Positions 25,762 through 33,995 of a stretch of DNA of 64,000 bases are shown piece after piece. A program made the translations under genes and the position numbers. The DNA comes from Verrucomicrobiota bacterium JB022 (GTDB lineage: Bacteria; Verrucomicrobiota; Verrucomicrobiia; Opitutales; Oceanipulchritudinaceae): positions 1 to 64,000 of the forward strand of contig JAUTCQ010000005.1 of NCBI GenBank assembly GCA_030673845.1, read 5' to 3'. The notes under the pieces are model-generated. The model was not told the DNA's origin. It saw nothing but the letters and a program-made list of their open reading frames with translations, and made no database searches. Within the stretch, counting starts at the first letter, position 1. Each line of letters begins with the position of its first letter.

Positions 25762-26085
25762 GTGGATGAGCTAAGACTGGCAGAGCTGAAGCGACAACGC
25801 GAACTGGTGCGCGAGCACCTTGAGTGGCTCGATGCCACCATTGCCGCCGCCGAAGATGCGCCCACCGCACCCGCTACGCAGAGGGTAACGCCAGCAGTCG
25901 AACAAGTGCCCCCCAAGCCAAAACCGGAGGCGACTCACGAGCCTTACCTGCTCTCGCGCGAAGCATCACAGGCACAGGAAGTGGCTTCGACCTGGCAGGC
26001 CGGGTGCGTTATGGCCGCAGTACTCGCGACCTTGCTTTTCATCGGCGTGTTTTTCTGGCCGCTGCCACAGTTGATCTACCGGTAA
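25762..26085 (+). CDS. Small tail-anchored protein with N-terminal coiled coil
   Basis: 107 aa from a GTG start (25762). The first ~35 residues are strongly helical and charged (ELKRQRELVREHLEWLD), a short coiled coil. A Pro/Ala-rich linker follows, then one C-terminal transmembrane helix (VMAAVLATLLFIGVFFWPL). I do not recognise the family. Its last bases overlap the 3' end of the hydrolase gene on the other strand. Confidence 0.55.
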   Translation: MDELRLAELKRQRELVREHLEWLDATIAAAEDAPTAPATQRVTPAVEQVPPKPKPEATHEPYLLSREASQAQEVASTWQAGCVMAAVLATLLFIGVFFWPLPQLIYR

Positions 26086-27020
26086 GGCGTCACGCCCGGG
26101 CGCTCGTCGGCTTCCACAAAGCTGCGCACGCGCTCGAGCACTTCAGAGGCCTTGTCTTCCAACACGTAGTGGCCGGCGTCGGCCCAATACTGCGTCGGCG
26201 CGCGCGGGAAGCGGCGGCACCACTCGTCGTAAAACCCATCGTGGAAGCACCAGTCTTGCCCACCCCACAGAATCTGCAGGTCGCTACGGCTGAGAAATTC
26301 CAGCCCCTGCTCGATGCGCTGCAAGTCTGGCCGCGACGGGTGGTCGGCCTCCAGCGGGATGTCTTGCACAAAGCGGTGGATCGCCACGCGGTCGTGCCAG
26401 TTGCGATAGGGGAAAAGGTAACCGCGCTTCACCTGCTCGGCCAGCGGCTGGACGGTCGTCATAAACGTCGCCGGCCAAGCGAAGCCATTCAAGCCGCGCA
26501 CCAGCGGACCGCCCCAGAAGGGGTGGCGACAAAGCGCGATGCGGCGCGGGATCGACGGAAGGTGAAAGGCAGCGGTGTTGAGCACCGTGATACGCCCCAC
26601 CCTGTCCGGGTGCCGCGTGGCAAAGCCCATCCCGATGGCGCCGCCCCAGTCGTGCACCACAAGGTGCACGCGGTCGAGGCGGAGGTGGTCGACCAACTCC
26701 TCCACGTGCTGGATGTGCGCGTCGAGCCGGTAATTGAAGTCCTGCGGCTTGTCGGAGAAGCCGCAGCCCAAATGGTCGGGCACGATACAGCGAAACTGGT
26801 CGCGCAGGCCCAGCACGAGGTTGCGGTAGTAAAACGACCAGGTGGGGTTGCCATGCAGCATCAGGATCGGCGGGCCGGAGCCCTCGTCCACATAATGCAG
26901 GCAATGCCCGTTGGTCAGCAGGTACAGCTTACCGTCGAAGGGATAAAGGGCTCGGATCGAGACCGGCAGGGCGTCGGCACGGATCGGCTCCAAATGGGTG
27001 ACATCTTCAGGCGGTAGCAT
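26076..27020 (-). CDS. oleB: OleB-like alpha/beta hydrolase (haloalkane dehalogenase family)
   Basis: 314 aa. The haloalkane-dehalogenase-type signature LMLHGNPTWSFYYR gives the oxyanion/halide site, and the nucleophile Asp lies in VVHDWGGAIG. An Asp in LWGGQDWCF and a His in DAGHYVLED complete the likely triad. In ole clusters this family (OleB) is a beta-lactone decarboxylase making cis-olefins. It lies 3 bp downstream of an oleA gene and is the last gene of a tight four-gene operon. A stand-alone haloalkane dehalogenase role cannot be excluded without the context. Confidence 0.82.
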   Translation of the reverse strand: MLPPEDVTHLEPIRADALPVSIRALYPFDGKLYLLTNGHCLHYVDEGSGPPILMLHGNPTWSFYYRNLVLGLRDQFRCIVPDHLGCGFSDKPQDFNYRLDAHIQHVEELVDHLRLDRVHLVVHDWGGAIGMGFATRHPDRVGRITVLNTAAFHLPSIPRRIALCRHPFWGGPLVRGLNGFAWPATFMTTVQPLAEQVKRGYLFPYRNWHDRVAIHRFVQDIPLEADHPSRPDLQRIEQGLEFLSRSDLQILWGGQDWCFHDGFYDEWCRRFPRAPTQYWADAGHYVLEDKASEVLERVRSFVEADERPGVTPYR

Positions 27021-27023
27021 GTT

Positions 27024-28058
27024 CTAAGGAAGCGTAAGGCCCAGCATCGCGCTGCTCAGGCCACTGCCGATACCGAGCAAGGCCACCCGGTCGCCGCTTG
27101 TCAACACCCCGGCTTCCATCGCCTTCGCAAGCGAGAACGGCAGTGAGACCGAGCCGACATTGCCCATATACGGATACGTTGGGAAATCTTTCTCCAAGGG
27201 CAAGCCCAGACTTTCGAGCAGGCGGCGCTGGTGCGTGCGACCCACCTGGTGGCAGATCACGTGGTCCACCTCCGCATGGCCCCAGCCAAAGGCCTCCTGA
27301 AAACGCTCCCAGGTACGGCCCGCCACCTTGAGGCCTGCTTCGAGCAGCTGCTCGGCCTCGGTCAACATCTCCAGCGCATCGCCGGCGGTGTCTCCCTGGC
27401 ACAGCTCGTTCGCACTGCTGTCGGTCTCCACTACCCCGCCGAGCAGGGCCGGAGCGTTGGCGGGCGCTTCGTCGGCATGGCAAAGCACCATGGCGACCGC
27501 GCCTGCGCCGATCGTGAGGTTGGCGAAGTAGGGCTTGATCTCGCGGCGGCTCAAGGGGCGCTCCAGCAAGGTCTGGATAGTGCGCTCAAGCAACGGGCGA
27601 CCATTTTCGCCCGAAACGAGCAGCGCGCGGCGGATCGCGCCCGATTCAATCATCGCGGCGGCCATCGTCATGGCATTCACGAAGCCGAGGCAGGCGTTTG
27701 AAAGGTCGAAAATCTGCGTGCGGCTGCCAAGGCCCAGTAGCCCGTGCACGTAGGCTGCGGTCGCTGGCTCCAGCCGGTCGCGGCAGACGCCGCAGTGCAC
27801 CAGCAAGTCGATCTCGTCCTTGCCAAAGCGGGAGCGTTCGAGCGCGAGCGCGCCGGCCTGGGCGCTGGCTTCGCTCGGGCGGATCGGGTGCGGCCAAAAG
27901 TGGCGGGTCTCAATGCCGGTCATCAGCTCCAGGCGGCCTTCAGGCAGCTTCAGGCGCTGGTAGACGGGAGCAAGACGGGCCTCGATCTCGGCCGAAGACA
28001 CGGGCTGCGGCGGCACGATGTAGCCGGTGGCCTCGATGCGGACGTGCTGAAAGCGCAT
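27024..28058 (-). CDS. oleA: OleA-type thiolase (acyl-CoA head-to-head condensing enzyme)
   Basis: 344 aa, thiolase fold related to FabH. Catalytic Cys123 in LSNACLGF; Glu97 in VCRDRLEP; His270 in ICHQVGRTH; Asn300 in YMGNVGS. The Glu-to-Cys spacing (26) and His-to-Asn spacing (30) equal those I recall for characterised OleA (E117/C143 and H285/N315). The Glu is the residue that separates OleA from FabH. OleA joins two acyl-CoAs into a 2-alkyl-3-ketoacid, the first step of long-chain olefin or ketone formation. OleC and OleD are not in the window. It follows fabI by 6 bp. Confidence 0.88.
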   Translation of the reverse strand: MRFQHVRIEATGYIVPPQPVSSAEIEARLAPVYQRLKLPEGRLELMTGIETRHFWPHPIRPSEASAQAGALALERSRFGKDEIDLLVHCGVCRDRLEPATAAYVHGLLGLGSRTQIFDLSNACLGFVNAMTMAAAMIESGAIRRALLVSGENGRPLLERTIQTLLERPLSRREIKPYFANLTIGAGAVAMVLCHADEAPANAPALLGGVVETDSSANELCQGDTAGDALEMLTEAEQLLEAGLKVAGRTWERFQEAFGWGHAEVDHVICHQVGRTHQRRLLESLGLPLEKDFPTYPYMGNVGSVSLPFSLAKAMEAGVLTSGDRVALLGIGSGLSSAMLGLTLP

Positions 28059-28064
28059 GTAAAT

Positions 28065-28862
28065 TTACTCGGGGCGCATCGCAAGGCGCACCACTTCTTC
28101 GTCGAAGTAATTCCAGTCCATCCCCGCGTTGACGGTGATGCCTTGGGCGTTGATGCCGCTGCTGCGCGGGCTGAGCAGATAAACGGCGGTGTCGGCCACC
28201 TCTTGCGTGGTCAGCGCGCGCTTGCGCATGGTCAGCTTTTCGGCAAAGAGGTAATTGTTGAGGTAGTTGGGAATGCCTGCGCTGCTCTTGGTCTTGAGCG
28301 GGCCCGCATTGACAGAGTTGAAGCGCACCTCGCTGTCTTCACTGAAGCTCTTGGCGAGGAAGCGCACGCAGCCCTCCAGCGCGCTCTTGATCGGCGACAT
28401 GTAGCCGTAGGTGCGTGCGGTGACGTAAGACGAGATCCCGATCGCCACCACCGAGGCCTGCGGCTGCAGGTGCGGCTTGAGCGCGCGGGCCAGCTCAACG
28501 AGCGAAAAGGCACTGATCTGCGTCGCCTGCAGGAAGTCCTGCCGGTTGGTTTCGTGAAAGGGCACGAAGCCCTCGGAGTAGTTCGCAAACGCGATGGAGT
28601 GGACGAAGCCGTCGAACGGCCCCAGCTCGGCCACCTGCGCGGGTAGTGCGGCCAGGTCGGCCTCCTGCTCCACGTCGCAGAGCACCGTAGGCCGGTCGCC
28701 CAGCAGCTTGGCCAGCTCGTCGCGACGGGCCGCATTGCGCACGCCATAAACGACCATCGCCCCTTCGCGCTCCAGCGTCTGCCCGATGACCCAGGCCACG
28801 CTCTTGCGGTTGCCGAGGCCGAAGACGAGAAAACGCTTACCGCTGACTTGCAGGAAACTCAT
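28065..28862 (-). CDS. fabI: Enoyl-ACP reductase
   Basis: 265 aa SDR. The FabI signatures are a glycine-rich start lacking the standard GxxxGxG (FGLGNRKSVAWVIG), VHSIAF, and the YX6K catalytic pair in TYGYMSPIKSALEG. It reduces trans-2-enoyl-ACP with NADH in fatty acid elongation. Its start codon abuts the fabZ stop, so the two are translated in tandem. Whether it serves general FAS II or the hydrocarbon pathway of this operon is open. Confidence 0.93.
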   Translation of the reverse strand: MSFLQVSGKRFLVFGLGNRKSVAWVIGQTLEREGAMVVYGVRNAARRDELAKLLGDRPTVLCDVEQEADLAALPAQVAELGPFDGFVHSIAFANYSEGFVPFHETNRQDFLQATQISAFSLVELARALKPHLQPQASVVAIGISSYVTARTYGYMSPIKSALEGCVRFLAKSFSEDSEVRFNSVNAGPLKTKSSAGIPNYLNNYLFAEKLTMRKRALTTQEVADTAVYLLSPRSSGINAQGITVNAGMDWNYFDEEVVRLAMRPE

Positions 28863-29318
28863 TTACGCTTTCTTGGCGGCGCTTTCGTCGATCAGGGCCA
28901 ACGTGCACTCGAGCATCATCGCGGGCTTGCCGTCTTTCAGCACGCGGCCACGCATCTGGTGAAACTGTTGCACCTGGCTGAGGTAGGTGACTTCGATCGT
29001 GATCTCGTCGCCCGGCTTCACCATGCGCTTGAAGCGCGCGTCCTGGATGCGCACGAGCACAGGCGTCAGGGAAGTCGACTCCACCTCGGCGGAGATCTTC
29101 TTTTGCGCGAGGTAGATGGCCGCCGTCTGGAAGATCGACTCGCAGAGCAGGACGCCCGGCATGATGGGGTTATTCGGGTAATGCCCCTCGAACTGCGGCT
29201 CGTCGGCGCGGATCGTGCGGCGGGCCGTTGCCCCTTCATCAGTCACCTCCACGATCTCGTCCACAAAAAGGAACGGCGGGCGGTGGGGAATCGTCTGGTA
29301 AATGGCTTCGAGGCTCAT
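28863..29318 (-). CDS. fabZ: 3-hydroxyacyl-ACP dehydratase FabZ
   Basis: About 151 aa hot-dog fold. IPHRPPFLFVDEI holds the catalytic His and GHYPNNPIMPGVLLCES the catalytic acid (here the Glu of LLCES). It dehydrates 3-hydroxyacyl-ACP. The start is ATG 29318 (MSLEAIYQTIPHRPP); the frame opens seven codons further. First gene of the compact fabZ-fabI-oleA-oleB operon, where gaps are 0, 6 and 3 bp. Confidence 0.92.
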   Translation of the reverse strand: MSLEAIYQTIPHRPPFLFVDEIVEVTDEGATARRTIRADEPQFEGHYPNNPIMPGVLLCESIFQTAAIYLAQKKISAEVESTSLTPVLVRIQDARFKRMVKPGDEITIEVTYLSQVQQFHQMRGRVLKDGKPAMMLECTLALIDESAAKKA

Positions 29319-29413
29319 GAAGCGAGTAACATAAGACAATTCGGGCCTGCGGGGGAATGCGAAAATGCGGCCATCGCACCGGCTTACCGCGCTTTTTACA
29401 TTTCGCAGCCGAA

Positions 29414-29547
29414 AACCAGAACACGCTTCTGGTTAAACAACCCCTCCGCTTGCCGATACAAGAAAGGAGGGGCGCAAGACAGGTGCCCCGCTCGAGGCCT
29501 CCTCCCTCACCTACCTGCCCGGCCAGCGTTTAGGCCGGGCTTTTTAC
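29414..29547 (+). ncRNA. Candidate structured RNA between fabZ and the FAD oxidoreductase
   Basis: Three successive hairpins: AACCAGA/TCTGGTT (29414-29434), CCCCTCC/GGAGGGG (29441-29472) and GCCCGGCC/GGCCGGGC (29517-29540). The last is followed by five T on the plus strand, opposite to both flanking genes. A plus-strand terminator with no plus-strand gene before it points to a small RNA. No clear promoter is visible. The same region could instead be the 5' leader of the fabZ operon on the minus strand. Confidence 0.35.
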
Positions 29548-31019
29548 GCTTCCACGGCCTGCGGGCTACGCAGGAAGCTGTCGACCTTGTTGGAGACGAT
29601 GACGCCGTAATTGATTGTGCCGAGCCAGCCGCTCATAATGATGCCGACCGAACCGGCGTGGTAGAGACCGTGCAACTGGTCGGGCAGCTCTTGCGACACC
29701 TTCAGGCCCTCGAACTTGGTGCCAAAGCTGGTGCCGCCGATGTGGCGCACGTAGCGGTTGACCGTCCGGGGCGTGGCTGCCTCCAGGTGCTCGACCTTTT
29801 GGCGGATGTCGGGGATGAACTTCTCCAGCGCGTCGAGTGAGCTGTCGATCAGCCACTGCTTTTCGCGGGCGTATTCCTCGTCGCTGAGGCTTTCCCAGTC
29901 CTTCCACTGCGCGTTGATCGAAGCGACCACGGCAAAGCGCTCGTCCTTGCTCTGCGGGCGCGTCTCCGGGTAGTAGACCGAGAAAGTCCGGCTGCTACTG
30001 CGCATCCCCGTCAGCTCGGGCGTCGAAAAAGTCTCGGCGCCGGAGGTGAAGACGAGGTCGCCGATGAAGGGGATGCTCTCGCCTTTGCGGATGCCCATGT
30101 AGACCTGACACGAGCTGTTGTTAACGCGTACGGCCTGGGCTTCGGCGGCATAGGCGGCCGGGAACTTCTCCGCGCCGACGAGGCGGAAAATCGTGTTCTT
30201 GATGTTGGCGTTGGAGACGATGGCGCGGCAACGAATGGTGTGCTCGGCCTGCTCGCCGCCAGTGTTCTGGCTCTGCGCCACGATGCCGACCACGCGGTGC
30301 TTGCCGTCTTTGCCCTGCTCGGTCAGCACCTGCTTCACGAGGGCACTCTTGCGCAGCTCCACGCCGTTGCGCTTCAACTCGGCGGTCATGCGGCCAATGA
30401 GCTGATCGGTGCCGCCTTGGTAGATGTAGACGCCCTTGCTCATGAAGTTGCTGAAGACGATGCCGTAGGTGATGGCGGGGTCTTCGAGCGTCGAGCCGTT
30501 GGCGTAGCTGATCGGCTCCATCAACAGGCGGTGCACGTCGTTGCGACCGGGGAAGAACTCTTCGAACATCTCGCCCGTGGTGCGCTGGTCGTCGTCGTAG
30601 AAGTTCATGCCGCGCAGGTGCGTGAAGAACGCCTCCACCTGCTCGCGCTCCAGCCCGAAGTCCTCGACCAGGATGCGCGTAAAGTCGTCGCGGTCGAAAG
30701 TGGTGCGCACGTCCATTTGCGGGTTGATGAAGCGCACGTCCTTGAGCTGGTGGATGCTGTCGGCGATCTCCTTCGTCCAGTATTTGCGGCAGCTCTTGAT
30801 CATGCCCACGGGGAAGCCGTGCAGCGAGATGTCGAAGATGTGGCCGCCGGGCCGCTTGAACCAGGTGGCGAGCCCGCCAAACTGGTAATGATGCTCCAGC
30901 AGCAGCACCTTGTGGCCCTGCTTTGCCAGCAGATTGGCGCTTGTGAGGCCACCGAGGCCGCTGCCAATCACCACTACATCGTATGCGTCGTCTACGCCTG
31001 CCAACCAGTCTTTCGCCAT
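29544..31019 (-). CDS. FAD-dependent phytoene desaturase/RetSat-like oxidoreductase
   Basis: 491 aa. The dinucleotide-binding motif is [20 protein letters not shown], followed by LEHHYQFGG, and the C-terminal FAD segment reads [20 protein letters not shown]. The family includes phytoene desaturases, carotenoid isomerases and retinol saturases; the substrate is therefore probably a polyunsaturated or isoprenoid lipid. It is upstream of the fabZ-fabI-oleA-oleB operon on the same strand but separated by 225 bp, so it may or may not be co-transcribed. No crtB or other carotenoid genes are nearby. Confidence 0.85.
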
Positions 31020-31372: not shown

Positions 31373-32530
31373 CTAGCGCCCGGCCAGGAGGCTTTCGCGG
31401 CGGAAGTCGCGGGGGGTTGTGTCGAGGGCGCGACGGAAGGCGTGGGAAAAGCGACTGAGGCTGGAGTAGCCGCTGCGTTCGGCGATTTCACTCAAAGGAA
31501 GACTGGTGTGGGTGAGCAGTTCGCGGGCACGGTCGAGGCGGAGGCGGTCGATCTCTTCCTTGGGGGAGCGGCCGAGGTAGCGGCGGAAGAGGTGCTCCAG
31601 CGTGCGGCGGCTCATGGGCACGGCGGCAGCGAGTTCCTTGACCGATAGATCCGGCAGGCGGCGGTCGCGCAAGAGCTGCAGGGCGCGGCGGAGCTGCGGG
31701 TGCTCCACCGCCAGGCGGTCCGACGAGCGCCGCTCGACCAGGCTGATTGGCGGCAAAAGCACCGGGGCCGTGGGCGCGGGCTCCCCCCGGATCATCGCCT
31801 CGACGAGGCGGGCGGCCTCGAAGCCCATGCGCTGCCACGGGATCGCGACGCTGCTCAGGGGCGGGTGCGTCAGCTCGCAGACGAGCGCGTCGTCGTTGGC
31901 GCCCACAATCGCAACTTCTTCAGGGATCTGCAGGCCCGCGTCGCGACAGGCCTCGGCCAGGCTGCGCCCTTGCGGGTCGTGCACCGCAAAGACGCCGACC
32001 GGCTTGGGCAGTGCTTGCAGCCAGTCGATCATTTCCCGATTGGAGGGAGTCCAGTGCTCGATGTAGCGGCGGTCGGAGGGCGTGGGCTCGATCAGCACGG
32101 CGGCGGGCTCAGCCTGACGGGCGGCGAGGGCCTGCTGGAAGCCCTTTTCGCGCTGGGGCGAATAGGCGCTCGTGTTGCCGAAAAACGCAAAATGCGGTAA
32201 GCCGAGGGCCATCAGGTGCTCGGCCGCCATCGCGCCCACCGCCTCGTCGTCAACATCCACACAGGCCGCGCCGGGTAAGGGACCGTCCCAGGCGCTGACC
32301 ACCGTCGGCAGGCCCCGCTCCAGCAGGCGATCCGTCACGCCGGGCAGCATTTCGGTGATGAAGCCGCTCGGATCAAGGGCATCGAGCAGGGGCCAGAGCT
32401 CGTGCGCCGGGCGCTCGGCATCGACGATCCAGAAGTCGCGGCCGGGGTCGACCAGAGGGGGAAGGCCCTGGGCCAGACGCCGCACATAAACGGCGCTAAT
32501 CACCAAGGCAACGCGTCGGGAATGGCTCAT
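31373..32530 (-). CDS. xylR: XylR-type AraC family regulator
   Basis: About 385 aa. The N-terminal two-thirds is a LacI/periplasmic-binding-protein-like sugar-binding domain (VDVDDEAVGAMAAEHLMALG, EEVAIVGANDDALVCEL). The C-terminal ~100 residues are an AraC double HTH (LSVKELAAAVPMSRRTLEHL, PLSEIAERSGYSSLSRFSHA). This fusion is typical of XylR, the D-xylose-responsive activator. It is divergent from xylA with 154 bp between. The ATG at 32530 is chosen because it lies at the start of the sensor domain. Confidence 0.92.
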   Translation of the reverse strand: MSHSRRVALVISAVYVRRLAQGLPPLVDPGRDFWIVDAERPAHELWPLLDALDPSGFITEMLPGVTDRLLERGLPTVVSAWDGPLPGAACVDVDDEAVGAMAAEHLMALGLPHFAFFGNTSAYSPQREKGFQQALAARQAEPAAVLIEPTPSDRRYIEHWTPSNREMIDWLQALPKPVGVFAVHDPQGRSLAEACRDAGLQIPEEVAIVGANDDALVCELTHPPLSSVAIPWQRMGFEAARLVEAMIRGEPAPTAPVLLPPISLVERRSSDRLAVEHPQLRRALQLLRDRRLPDLSVKELAAAVPMSRRTLEHLFRRYLGRSPKEEIDRLRLDRARELLTHTSLPLSEIAERSGYSSLSRFSHAFRRALDTTPRDFRRESLLAGR

Positions 32531-32552
32531 GTAAAGGCAGAGCTTCCCCTTG

Positions 32553-32562
32553 TTTGCGCAAA
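32553..32562. promoter_or_regulatory. Palindrome TTTGCGCAAA in the xylR-xylA gap
   Basis: A 10-bp perfect palindrome, 23 bp from the xylR start and 122 bp from xylA. It resembles the half-site style of LacI/GalR operators. AraC-type XylR normally binds direct repeats, so another regulator may use it. Weak evidence. Confidence 0.3.
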
Positions 32563-32684
32563 ACGGCAAATCCTTTCCGCAAGATGCGGTTCCTTTTGGG
32601 CCGGATTTTTGGTATTATGCCACCATCGCAGCATTACCCAAGCTTACCCCGCGTTGCTGCAGCCCTTTTCAACCCCACCCTACC

Positions 32685-33995
32685 ATGAGCGAAGCCTTTC
32701 CCGACGTTCCCAAGATTGAATTCGAGGGCCCGAAGAGCCGCAATCCGCTTGCCTTCAAGCATTATAACCGCGACGAGGTCGTGCTGGGCAAGACGATGGC
32801 CGATCACCTCCGTTTCGGTGCCGCCTACTGGCACGTGATGCGCAATGAGCTGAGCGACCCCTTCGGTGCCGGCACCGCACAGACGCCATGGGACGACAAG
32901 AGTAACTCGGTGGCCAATGCGCAAAAGCGCGTGGGCGTGTTCTTCGAGTTCCTCGAAAAGACGGGGATCGACTACTATTGCTTCCACGACCGCGACGTGG
33001 CCCCCGAGGGCAAGGACCTCGCCGAGAGCAACCGCAACCTCGACGCCGTCGTGCAAACGCTGGAAGAAGCCCAACAGCGCACCGGCAAGAAGCTGCTCTG
33101 GGGCACGGCCAGCCTCTTTACCCACACCCGCTACATGCACGGCGGCGCGACCTCCTGCAGTGCCGATGTCTATGCCTACGCCGCTGGCCAGGTGAAGAAG
33201 GCGCTCGAAGTGACGCACCGCCTGGGCGGCCTCGGCTATACCTTCTGGGGTGGCCGCGAAGGCTATTCCACCCTGTGGAACACCGACATGAAGCGCGAGC
33301 GCGAGCACCTCGCCCGCTTCTTCCACCTCTGTGTGGACTACAAGAAGCAGATCGGTTTTGCGGGCCCGTTTTACATCGAGCCCAAGCCGCAGGAGCCGAC
33401 CACCCACCAATACGACTCCGACGCCGAGGCCTGCCTCAATTTCCTGCGCGAGTTCGACCTGATGGAGCACTTCAAGCTCAACATCGAGACCAACCACGCC
33501 ACCCTCGCCGGTCACACGATGCAGCACGAGCTGCAAGTGGCCGCCAATGCCGGTGCGTTGGGTTCGATCGACGCCAACCGGGGCGACCTGCTGGTGGGCT
33601 GGGATACCGACCAGTTCCCGACCGACCTTTACCTGACGACCGAAGTCATGCTGACGGTGCTCAAGACGGGCGGCTTCGTGACGGGCGGCCTCAACTTCGA
33701 CGCCAAGCGCCGGCGCGAGTCATGGGAACCCGTCGATCTCGTCCACGCCCACGTCGTCGGCATGGACGCCTTCGCCCGCGGACTCAAAACCGCCGCTGCC
33801 ATCCGCGCGGACGGCCGCATCGACGAGTTCATCAAGGCCCGCTACGCCACCTGGGACAGCGGCATCGGTGCCGACGTGGAAGCCGGCAAGGCCACCCTCG
33901 CCGACCTCGAGGCATACGCACTCGCAAACCCCGAACCGGTCATCGCATCCGGCCGCCAGGAAATGCTCGAAGGCATCTTCAACGAATACCTCTGA
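32685..33995 (+). CDS. xylA: Xylose isomerase (possible chimeric gene)
   Basis: 436 aa, full length. D-xylose to D-xylulose isomerase of class II size. Active-site segments are [13 protein letters not shown] (catalytic His/Asp), the metal ligands around [11 protein letters not shown] and [12 protein letters not shown], and [14 protein letters not shown] near the C-terminus. The reading frame is intact. Codon use changes at about 33,720: upstream it mixes CTG, GTG and ACG; downstream Leu is always CTC and Val almost always GTC. The last ~90 codons look like the right part of the window. Either two genomes were joined here in assembly, or the gene is a recombination product. A terminator follows. 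Confidence 0.95.

Follow-up and report, generated by a model that had tools for sequence, protein, structure and literature searches.

The window analysed here comprises the first 64,000 nucleotides (forward strand) of contig JAUTCQ010000005.1 (C5) of Verrucomicrobiota bacterium JB022 (GCA_030673845.1), a 4.35 Mb genome assembled in 25 contigs and 97% complete. On its minus strand lies a fabZ-fabI-oleA-oleB operon, which joins two enzymes of fatty acid synthesis (FAS) type to the head-to-head condensing enzyme OleA and to OleB. We propose that this operon probably belongs to a complete Ole pathway which is split into at least four scattered pieces and has its own chain-building module, the expected product being a long-chain olefin.

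The operon and its Ole enzymes

According to the coordinates and translations of the open reading frames (ORFs), the four genes follow each other with gaps of 0, 6 and 3 bp, as an earlier note on this DNA had described. That note made no mention of the flavoenzyme gene FAD1, which lies on the same strand, 204 bp upstream of the fabZ ORF. The features of the region are the following:

oleB, 26076..27020, minus strand: 314 amino acids (aa); alpha/beta hydrolase, haloalkane-dehalogenase-like; candidate beta-lactone decarboxylase
oleA, 27024..28058, minus strand: 344 aa; predicted head-to-head condensing thiolase
fabI-like enoyl-ACP reductase (ACP, acyl carrier protein), 28065..28862, minus strand: 265 aa; accessory copy
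fabZ-like 3-hydroxyacyl-ACP dehydratase, 28863..29339, minus strand: ORF from the TTG at 29339; judged from the start codons, the in-frame ATG at 29318 is likelier
GC-rich hairpin between FAD1 and fabZ, 29517..29540, no strand assigned: possible, weak transcript boundary
FAD1 flavoprotein with carotenoid desaturase/isomerase fold, 29544..31019, minus strand: 491 aa; in the same cluster in many relatives

The identity of OleA is supported by profile, structure and residue evidence. The protein passes NCBIfam PRK09258 (NF006720; 415.6 bits, cut-off 285) and its best solved relatives, aligned near end to end, are 3fk5/3row (E 6e-68), which we take to be Xanthomonas OleA; the next-best solved entry, named synthase 3, reaches only E 5e-22. 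The Glu-Pro general base (E97, P98) as well as C123, H270 and N300 are present, with Cys-Glu and His-Asn spacings of 26 and 30, in agreement with the earlier note. Glu97-Pro98, Cys123, His270 and Asn300 are moreover invariant in the 12 family proteins compared and in all 80 named oleA loci, which are the best 80 of at least 570 relatives and of which many lie on short contigs (79 titles read as Verrucomicrobiota, one is labelled Bacteriovorax). For the OleA of X. campestris, what Glu117 does has been addressed previously (PMC7064751). Residues 97-124 match the signature EPxx[AS]x(14,18)DxxNACL, as given in PMC7158056, which is found in 82/82 OleA rows and in none of the five proper FabH-like rows of our alignment, a sixth row having been read in the wrong frame, keeping in mind that the 80 loci were retrieved by peptide patterns, one of them containing NACL. 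Finally, in a quickly built tree of 87 rows, where 3row and one FabH-like row sit on long branches, the five FabH-like rows are separated from 3row and 81 OleA rows (SH-aLRT 100); the grouping with FabH that the earlier note had named as a possible refutation did not appear. The solved-structure matches, the tree and the signature together rule out a misnamed FabH, and head-to-head condensation of two acyl chains is the predicted function.

OleB, encoded directly after oleA, has as best solved relatives the alpha/beta fold hydrolases 8ckp/8ooh, presumably DhmeA, a subfamily III haloalkane-dehalogenase-like enzyme (PMC10503415). Its residues N58, D124 and H284 are identical in 72/72 loci and it scores below the haloalkane dehalogenase cut-off (167.7 vs 241 bits). 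By sequence it is a member of the haloalkane-dehalogenase-like family with Asp/His catalytic residues, and beta-lactone decarboxylation is its candidate activity.

Candidate OleC and OleD elsewhere in the genome

The operon contains neither oleC nor oleD, as the earlier note had pointed out while suggesting that both be sought elsewhere. Candidates for both were indeed found in the genome, OleC on contig C24 (NF006754, 677 bits vs a cut-off of 478) and OleD on contig C16. Judged from their sequences, OleA, B, C and D are all encoded and the pathway is complete but scattered, with oleA-oleB on C5, oleC on C24 and oleD on C16 instead of one oleABCD cluster. No second OleA was found in the genome (the remaining matches are at FabH level); a separate complete oleABCD set, which the earlier note would have counted against its reading, does not exist there as such, and oleC and oleD instead complete the oleA-oleB pair of the window.

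The 17 family genomes include 15 with OleA, 16 with OleC and 16 with OleD. The oleC and oleD matches are at most 56 bp apart in eight of them and less than 2 kb apart in two more (G013 and G015), and lie on different contigs in the genus of the window. Two genomes (G007 and G009) have oleC and oleD yet miss both OleA and the window-type FabI, which suggests an assembly gap. On one contig labelled Bacteriovorax (L178, 39% GC), oleA-oleB-oleC-oleD are contiguous.

This distribution bears on the possibility that OleA and OleB work without OleC and OleD, giving either a new product or ketones that arise through spontaneous decarboxylation. That oleC and oleD lie outside the operon, and outside 79 of the 80 related gene blocks, speaks for it. 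Against it stand the strong candidates for both genes in this genome, their occurrence in 16/17 family genomes each (adjacent in eight) and the contiguous set of L178, so that we consider it highly improbable. Because of the candidates in the same genome and in 16/17 family genomes each, an olefin and not a ketone is expected. The pathway variant lacking OleC and OleD that the earlier note had put forward is rejected in view of the candidates on C24 and C16 and of the same family occurrence; its other suggestion, that the chains come from the operon's own FabZ and FabI, is retained in so far as these are accessory (see below).

Two neighbours of these genes were named by eye from their sequences. 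An acyltransferase-like gene (plsC) lies directly upstream of oleC on C24 (L067:7595-10142), and oleD on C16 is directly preceded by a flavin monooxygenase-like gene (L068:8079-10457); among the stretches compared, both arrangements are confined to the genus of the window, where they occur in JB022 and the sister species. Very long open frames of 8342 and 4284 aa with AMP-ligase-like matches are present at C24:21399 (L040), about 7 kb from oleC, and at C19:113386-120810 (L038, L044), the latter also with a ketosynthase (KS)-like match; both are probably large nonribosomal peptide synthetase/polyketide synthase genes.

The proposed chain-building module

The association of oleA with FAS genes, which the earlier note had seen in the window, is repeated in the majority of the 80 related loci. 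We defined the block around oleA as genes on the same strand with gaps of less than 1.5 kb between the sought genes; block counts leave out FabG matches and the query U253, and minus-strand families were ignored as probable shadows. U253, a 253-aa upstream ORF for which neither Pfam nor NCBIfam gave a match, is situated opposite a longer ORF; it was judged a shadow frame and dropped. In addition to the genes of the operon and FAD1, the sought genes encode a FabF-type synthase (KS), an 87-aa ACP and a second flavoprotein, FAD2, in this order; this half of the module was outside the view of the earlier note. Considering composition and arrangement, the 80 blocks are distributed as follows:

KS-ACP-FAD2-FAD1-fabZ-fabI-oleA-oleB: 17
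FAD2-FAD1-fabZ-fabI-oleA-oleB: 3
FAD1-fabZ-fabI-oleA-oleB: 21
fabZ-fabI-oleA-oleB: 19
fabI-oleA-oleB: 7
FAD1-fabZ-fabI-oleA: 1
fabZ-fabI-oleA: 1
KS-ACP-FAD2-oleA-oleB-oleC-oleD: 1 (L178)
oleA-oleB: 8
oleA: 2

Since fabI precedes oleA by at most 1.5 kb on the same strand in 69/80 loci, and fabZ-fabI-oleA are joined in 62/80, the linkage is not chance. In 42/80 loci FAD1 shares the block and precedes fabZ; the set FAD1-fabZ-fabI-oleA-oleB occurs, for example, in Verrucomicrobiae bacterium DG1235 (L134) and Puniceicoccaceae bacterium K14 (L142), neither of them labelled as a metagenome-assembled genome. KS is in the block in 18 of the 53 loci whose sequence upstream of oleA exceeds 7 kb. In 14 family loci, fabI-oleA-oleB are adjacent in all 13 that reach oleB, fabZ is joined in eight and FAD1 is directly joined in five. 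A tree count of changes between joined and split labels (13) was left unused because contig ends were scored as split. Two gut Opitutales metagenome-assembled genomes (L139 and L145) have oleA with no oleB, fabI or fabZ nearby.

The FabI of the operon matches Pfam PF13561 and a solved FabI (E 6e-35) and is divergent, the best curated FabI profile giving 151 bits against a cut-off of 370. Its Tyr-x6-Lys residues (Y152, K159) are kept in 70/70 loci; position 146 varies, and the second active-site tyrosine of E. coli FabI has no clear counterpart. FabZ passes NF000582 (118 bits, cut-off 113), with H53 and E67 kept in 57/57 loci. Elsewhere the genome encodes FabV (646 bits, cut-off 400), LpxC-FabZ (514 bits, cut-off 465), FabA (272 bits, cut-off 124) and FabB (639 bits, cut-off 630), and the FabI and FabZ of the operon are therefore extra copies; FabV, LpxC-FabZ and FabA rule out that they are the sole enoyl-ACP reductase and dehydratase of the cell. 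No FabK match exceeded its cut-off in this genome (best E 2e-5). The fabA-fabB pair, at C12:420392-422111 (L205), equips the genome with the oxygen-independent route to monounsaturated chains.

The KS scores below the cut-offs of the profiles listed for it. Its Cys-His-His residues are kept in 22/22 sequences and the ACP serine in 21/21. A KS ortholog, 67-73% identical, is present in 17/17 family genomes and that of JB022, likewise below the listed cut-offs, is at C3:134715-135944. KS-ACP-FAD2 are contiguous in 13 of the 17 family genomes and rearranged within 5 kb in G016; KS is alone in the fetched stretch of JB022 (G000) and of G004, and a contig end cuts the cluster in G015. KS-ACP-FAD2 were not found beside the family oleC and oleD in the fetched stretches, where only a 26% KS-like match was seen (L207). 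In L178, KS-ACP-FAD2-oleA-oleB-oleC-oleD stand in a row (within L178:4786-17958); about 3 kb beyond the cluster, the opposite strand carries FabG-FabZ-FabI. Such an Opitutae-like cluster on a contig labelled Bacteriovorax may reflect lateral transfer or a misbinned contig.

Structure models of both flavoproteins have the gamma-carotenoid desaturase 4rep as closest match: FAD1 (predicted local distance difference test, pLDDT, 82.5) with Z 29.9 and a root-mean-square deviation (rmsd) of 3.2 over 435 residues, and FAD2 (taken from L168; pLDDT 76.3) with Z 25.8 and rmsd 4.0 over 435 residues. Their match lists also contain phytoene desaturases, amine oxidases and the fatty acid isomerase 2b9w (Z 22.6 for FAD1, 19.3 for FAD2). 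FAD1 misses the curated cut-offs for carotenoid enzymes, at best 100 bits against 550 for CrtD. The modelled fold is that of a large group of flavoenzymes, common to desaturases and isomerases alike, and FAD1 and FAD2 may desaturate or isomerise the acyl chain. Adjoining FAD1, at 31373-33995 of the window, a LacI/AraC-type regulator and a xylose isomerase gene, both named by eye from the translations, are arranged divergently.

Several observations weigh against a single pathway fed by a module of its own. (i) The pathway pieces of this genome are spread over four contigs, and the OleC and OleD candidates fall below the strict equivalog cut-offs of the Xanthomonas and Shewanella profiles (571 bits against 900 for olefin beta-lactone synthetase; 396 against 580 for 2-alkyl-3-oxoalkanoate reductase OleD). 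(ii) About 60 kb of sequence surrounding the JB022 KS yielded neither ACP nor FAD2, and the family keeps KS-ACP-FAD2 as an operon apart from oleA. (iii) Ten of the 80 blocks (those with oleA-oleB or oleA alone) have no FAS gene, 26 blocks have fabI and no FAD1, partly from contig ends, and L178 has no FAD1 match. (iv) FAD1 and fabZ may be separate transcripts in this genome, and in the sister species an opposite-strand gene sits between them, although the three terminator-like sites found in the region do not exceed the 5.0 expected by chance.

Proposed route and comparison with known systems

Putting these parts together, we propose that a dedicated KS (encoded on C3 in this genome), ACP, FabZ and FabI would elongate an acyl chain, with ketoreduction by a FabG from elsewhere. 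FAD1 and FAD2, which are carotenoid-desaturase-like, would desaturate or isomerise this chain, which would therefore probably be unsaturated. OleA would then condense two chains head to head, OleD (C16) would reduce the beta-keto acid, OleC (C24) would close the beta-lactone and OleB would decarboxylate it to a long-chain olefin. As in the OleABCD pathway of Xanthomonas campestris, Shewanella and Micrococcus, all four enzyme kinds are encoded, the OleA residues and signature are kept and a long-chain olefin is to be expected; unlike in that pathway, the genes are scattered, and the linkage includes FabZ, FabI and FAD1, to which relatives add KS, ACP and FAD2.

The FabZ and FabI of the operon could instead serve general fatty acid synthesis and merely share an operon with oleA and oleB, which would use ordinary acyl chains as in Xanthomonas, whose olefins are described as deriving from core type II FAS (PMC6463001). 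This would fit with the window FabI being the sole FabI-like protein of the genome at E<=1e-20 and with the lack of linkage between KS-ACP-FAD2 and oleA in those family loci that were examined. It sits poorly with the FabV, LpxC-FabZ, FabA and FabB that pass their cut-offs elsewhere, and with a set that reappears in 17/80 loci and in L178 together with a KS, an ACP and flavoproteins of its own; we regard it as unlikely.

A dedicated acyl chain feeding OleA has a precedent. The Pfa synthase is described as making a 16:4 chain which OleA takes to C31:9 (PMC6463001), and pfa and ole genes are reported in tandem in Geobacter bemidjiensis (PMC4882568). By analogy with Pfa and Ole in Shewanella, Photobacterium and G. 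bemidjiensis, the Opitutae module has KS, ACP, dehydratase and enoyl reductase functions and may represent a dedicated chain builder for OleA; unlike Pfa, its proteins are small and separate and are accompanied by the two carotenoid-desaturase-like flavoproteins. No large multidomain PfaA-like synthase was seen beside ole genes in the fetched oleA neighbourhoods, many of which lie on short contigs; beyond these neighbourhoods the JB022 genome was not searched for pfa.

The FASII (type II FAS) clusters of Desulfotalea psychrophila and Kuenenia stuttgartiensis resemble the module in gene content, with a FabF-type KS, ACP, FabZ and phytoene-dehydrogenase-like flavoproteins. D. psychrophila is reported to produce C31:8 and C31:9 hydrocarbons although no synthase of the Pfa kind turned up in it; its FASII clusters carry phytoene-dehydrogenase-like genes and a new anaerobic route was proposed by the authors (PMC2649909). 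The Kuenenia phytoene-desaturase-like proteins are reported to have had no CrtI-like activity when assayed (PMC4790861). This likeness raises a further explanation, in which an unusual lipid (ladderane-like or aryl-polyene-like) would be the separate product of the FAS-like genes, with OleA and OleB as mere neighbours or users of by-products. The gene content shared with the FASII clusters of Kuenenia and Desulfotalea (PMC2649909, PMC4790861) would agree with it, as would family genomes that hold KS-ACP-FAD2 apart from oleA. However, both halves are joined in 17/80 loci and KS-ACP-FAD2 lie next to oleABCD in L178. In the Opitutae clusters, unlike in those described, such genes are physically joined to oleA/oleB. 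The radical SAM genes reported for the described clusters were not seen either: a Pfam scan (no systematic search) gave no radical SAM domain in ten genes of L178 and ten further genes. We consider this separate lipid quite improbable.

The proposed chain-building module for OleA leads to a more specific and more tentative proposal. In Opitutae, a dissociated type II synthase of polyunsaturated chains (KS, ACP, FabZ, FabI and the two flavoproteins), working without Pfa or oxygen-dependent desaturases, might hand a polyunsaturated acyl-ACP to OleA and lead to a C31:9-like hydrocarbon, a possibility that we consider appreciable but less likely than not. As to what is new, the occurrence of ole genes in Verrucomicrobia and in Opitutae is already published (PMC7158056, PMC5673642) and Opitutae appear among the OleA classes of PMC7064751; for a FAS module linked to oleA, we found no published description among the open-licence papers searched.

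The hydrocarbon that a bacterium makes is decided by what OleA is fed, and PMC6463001 names core type II FAS and Pfa as sources of its chains. Surveys that demand oleBCD near oleA (within 5 kb, as PMC7158056 describes) could miss or undercount split pathways such as this one. If our proposal is true, the dedicated type II module found at oleA in many Opitutae would be a third source, a small-protein route to unsaturated long hydrocarbons. It would also be a candidate answer to how C31:9 is synthesised without Pfa, as raised by the account in PMC2649909, and Desulfotalea psychrophila may owe its C31:8 and C31:9 hydrocarbons to a solution of this kind.

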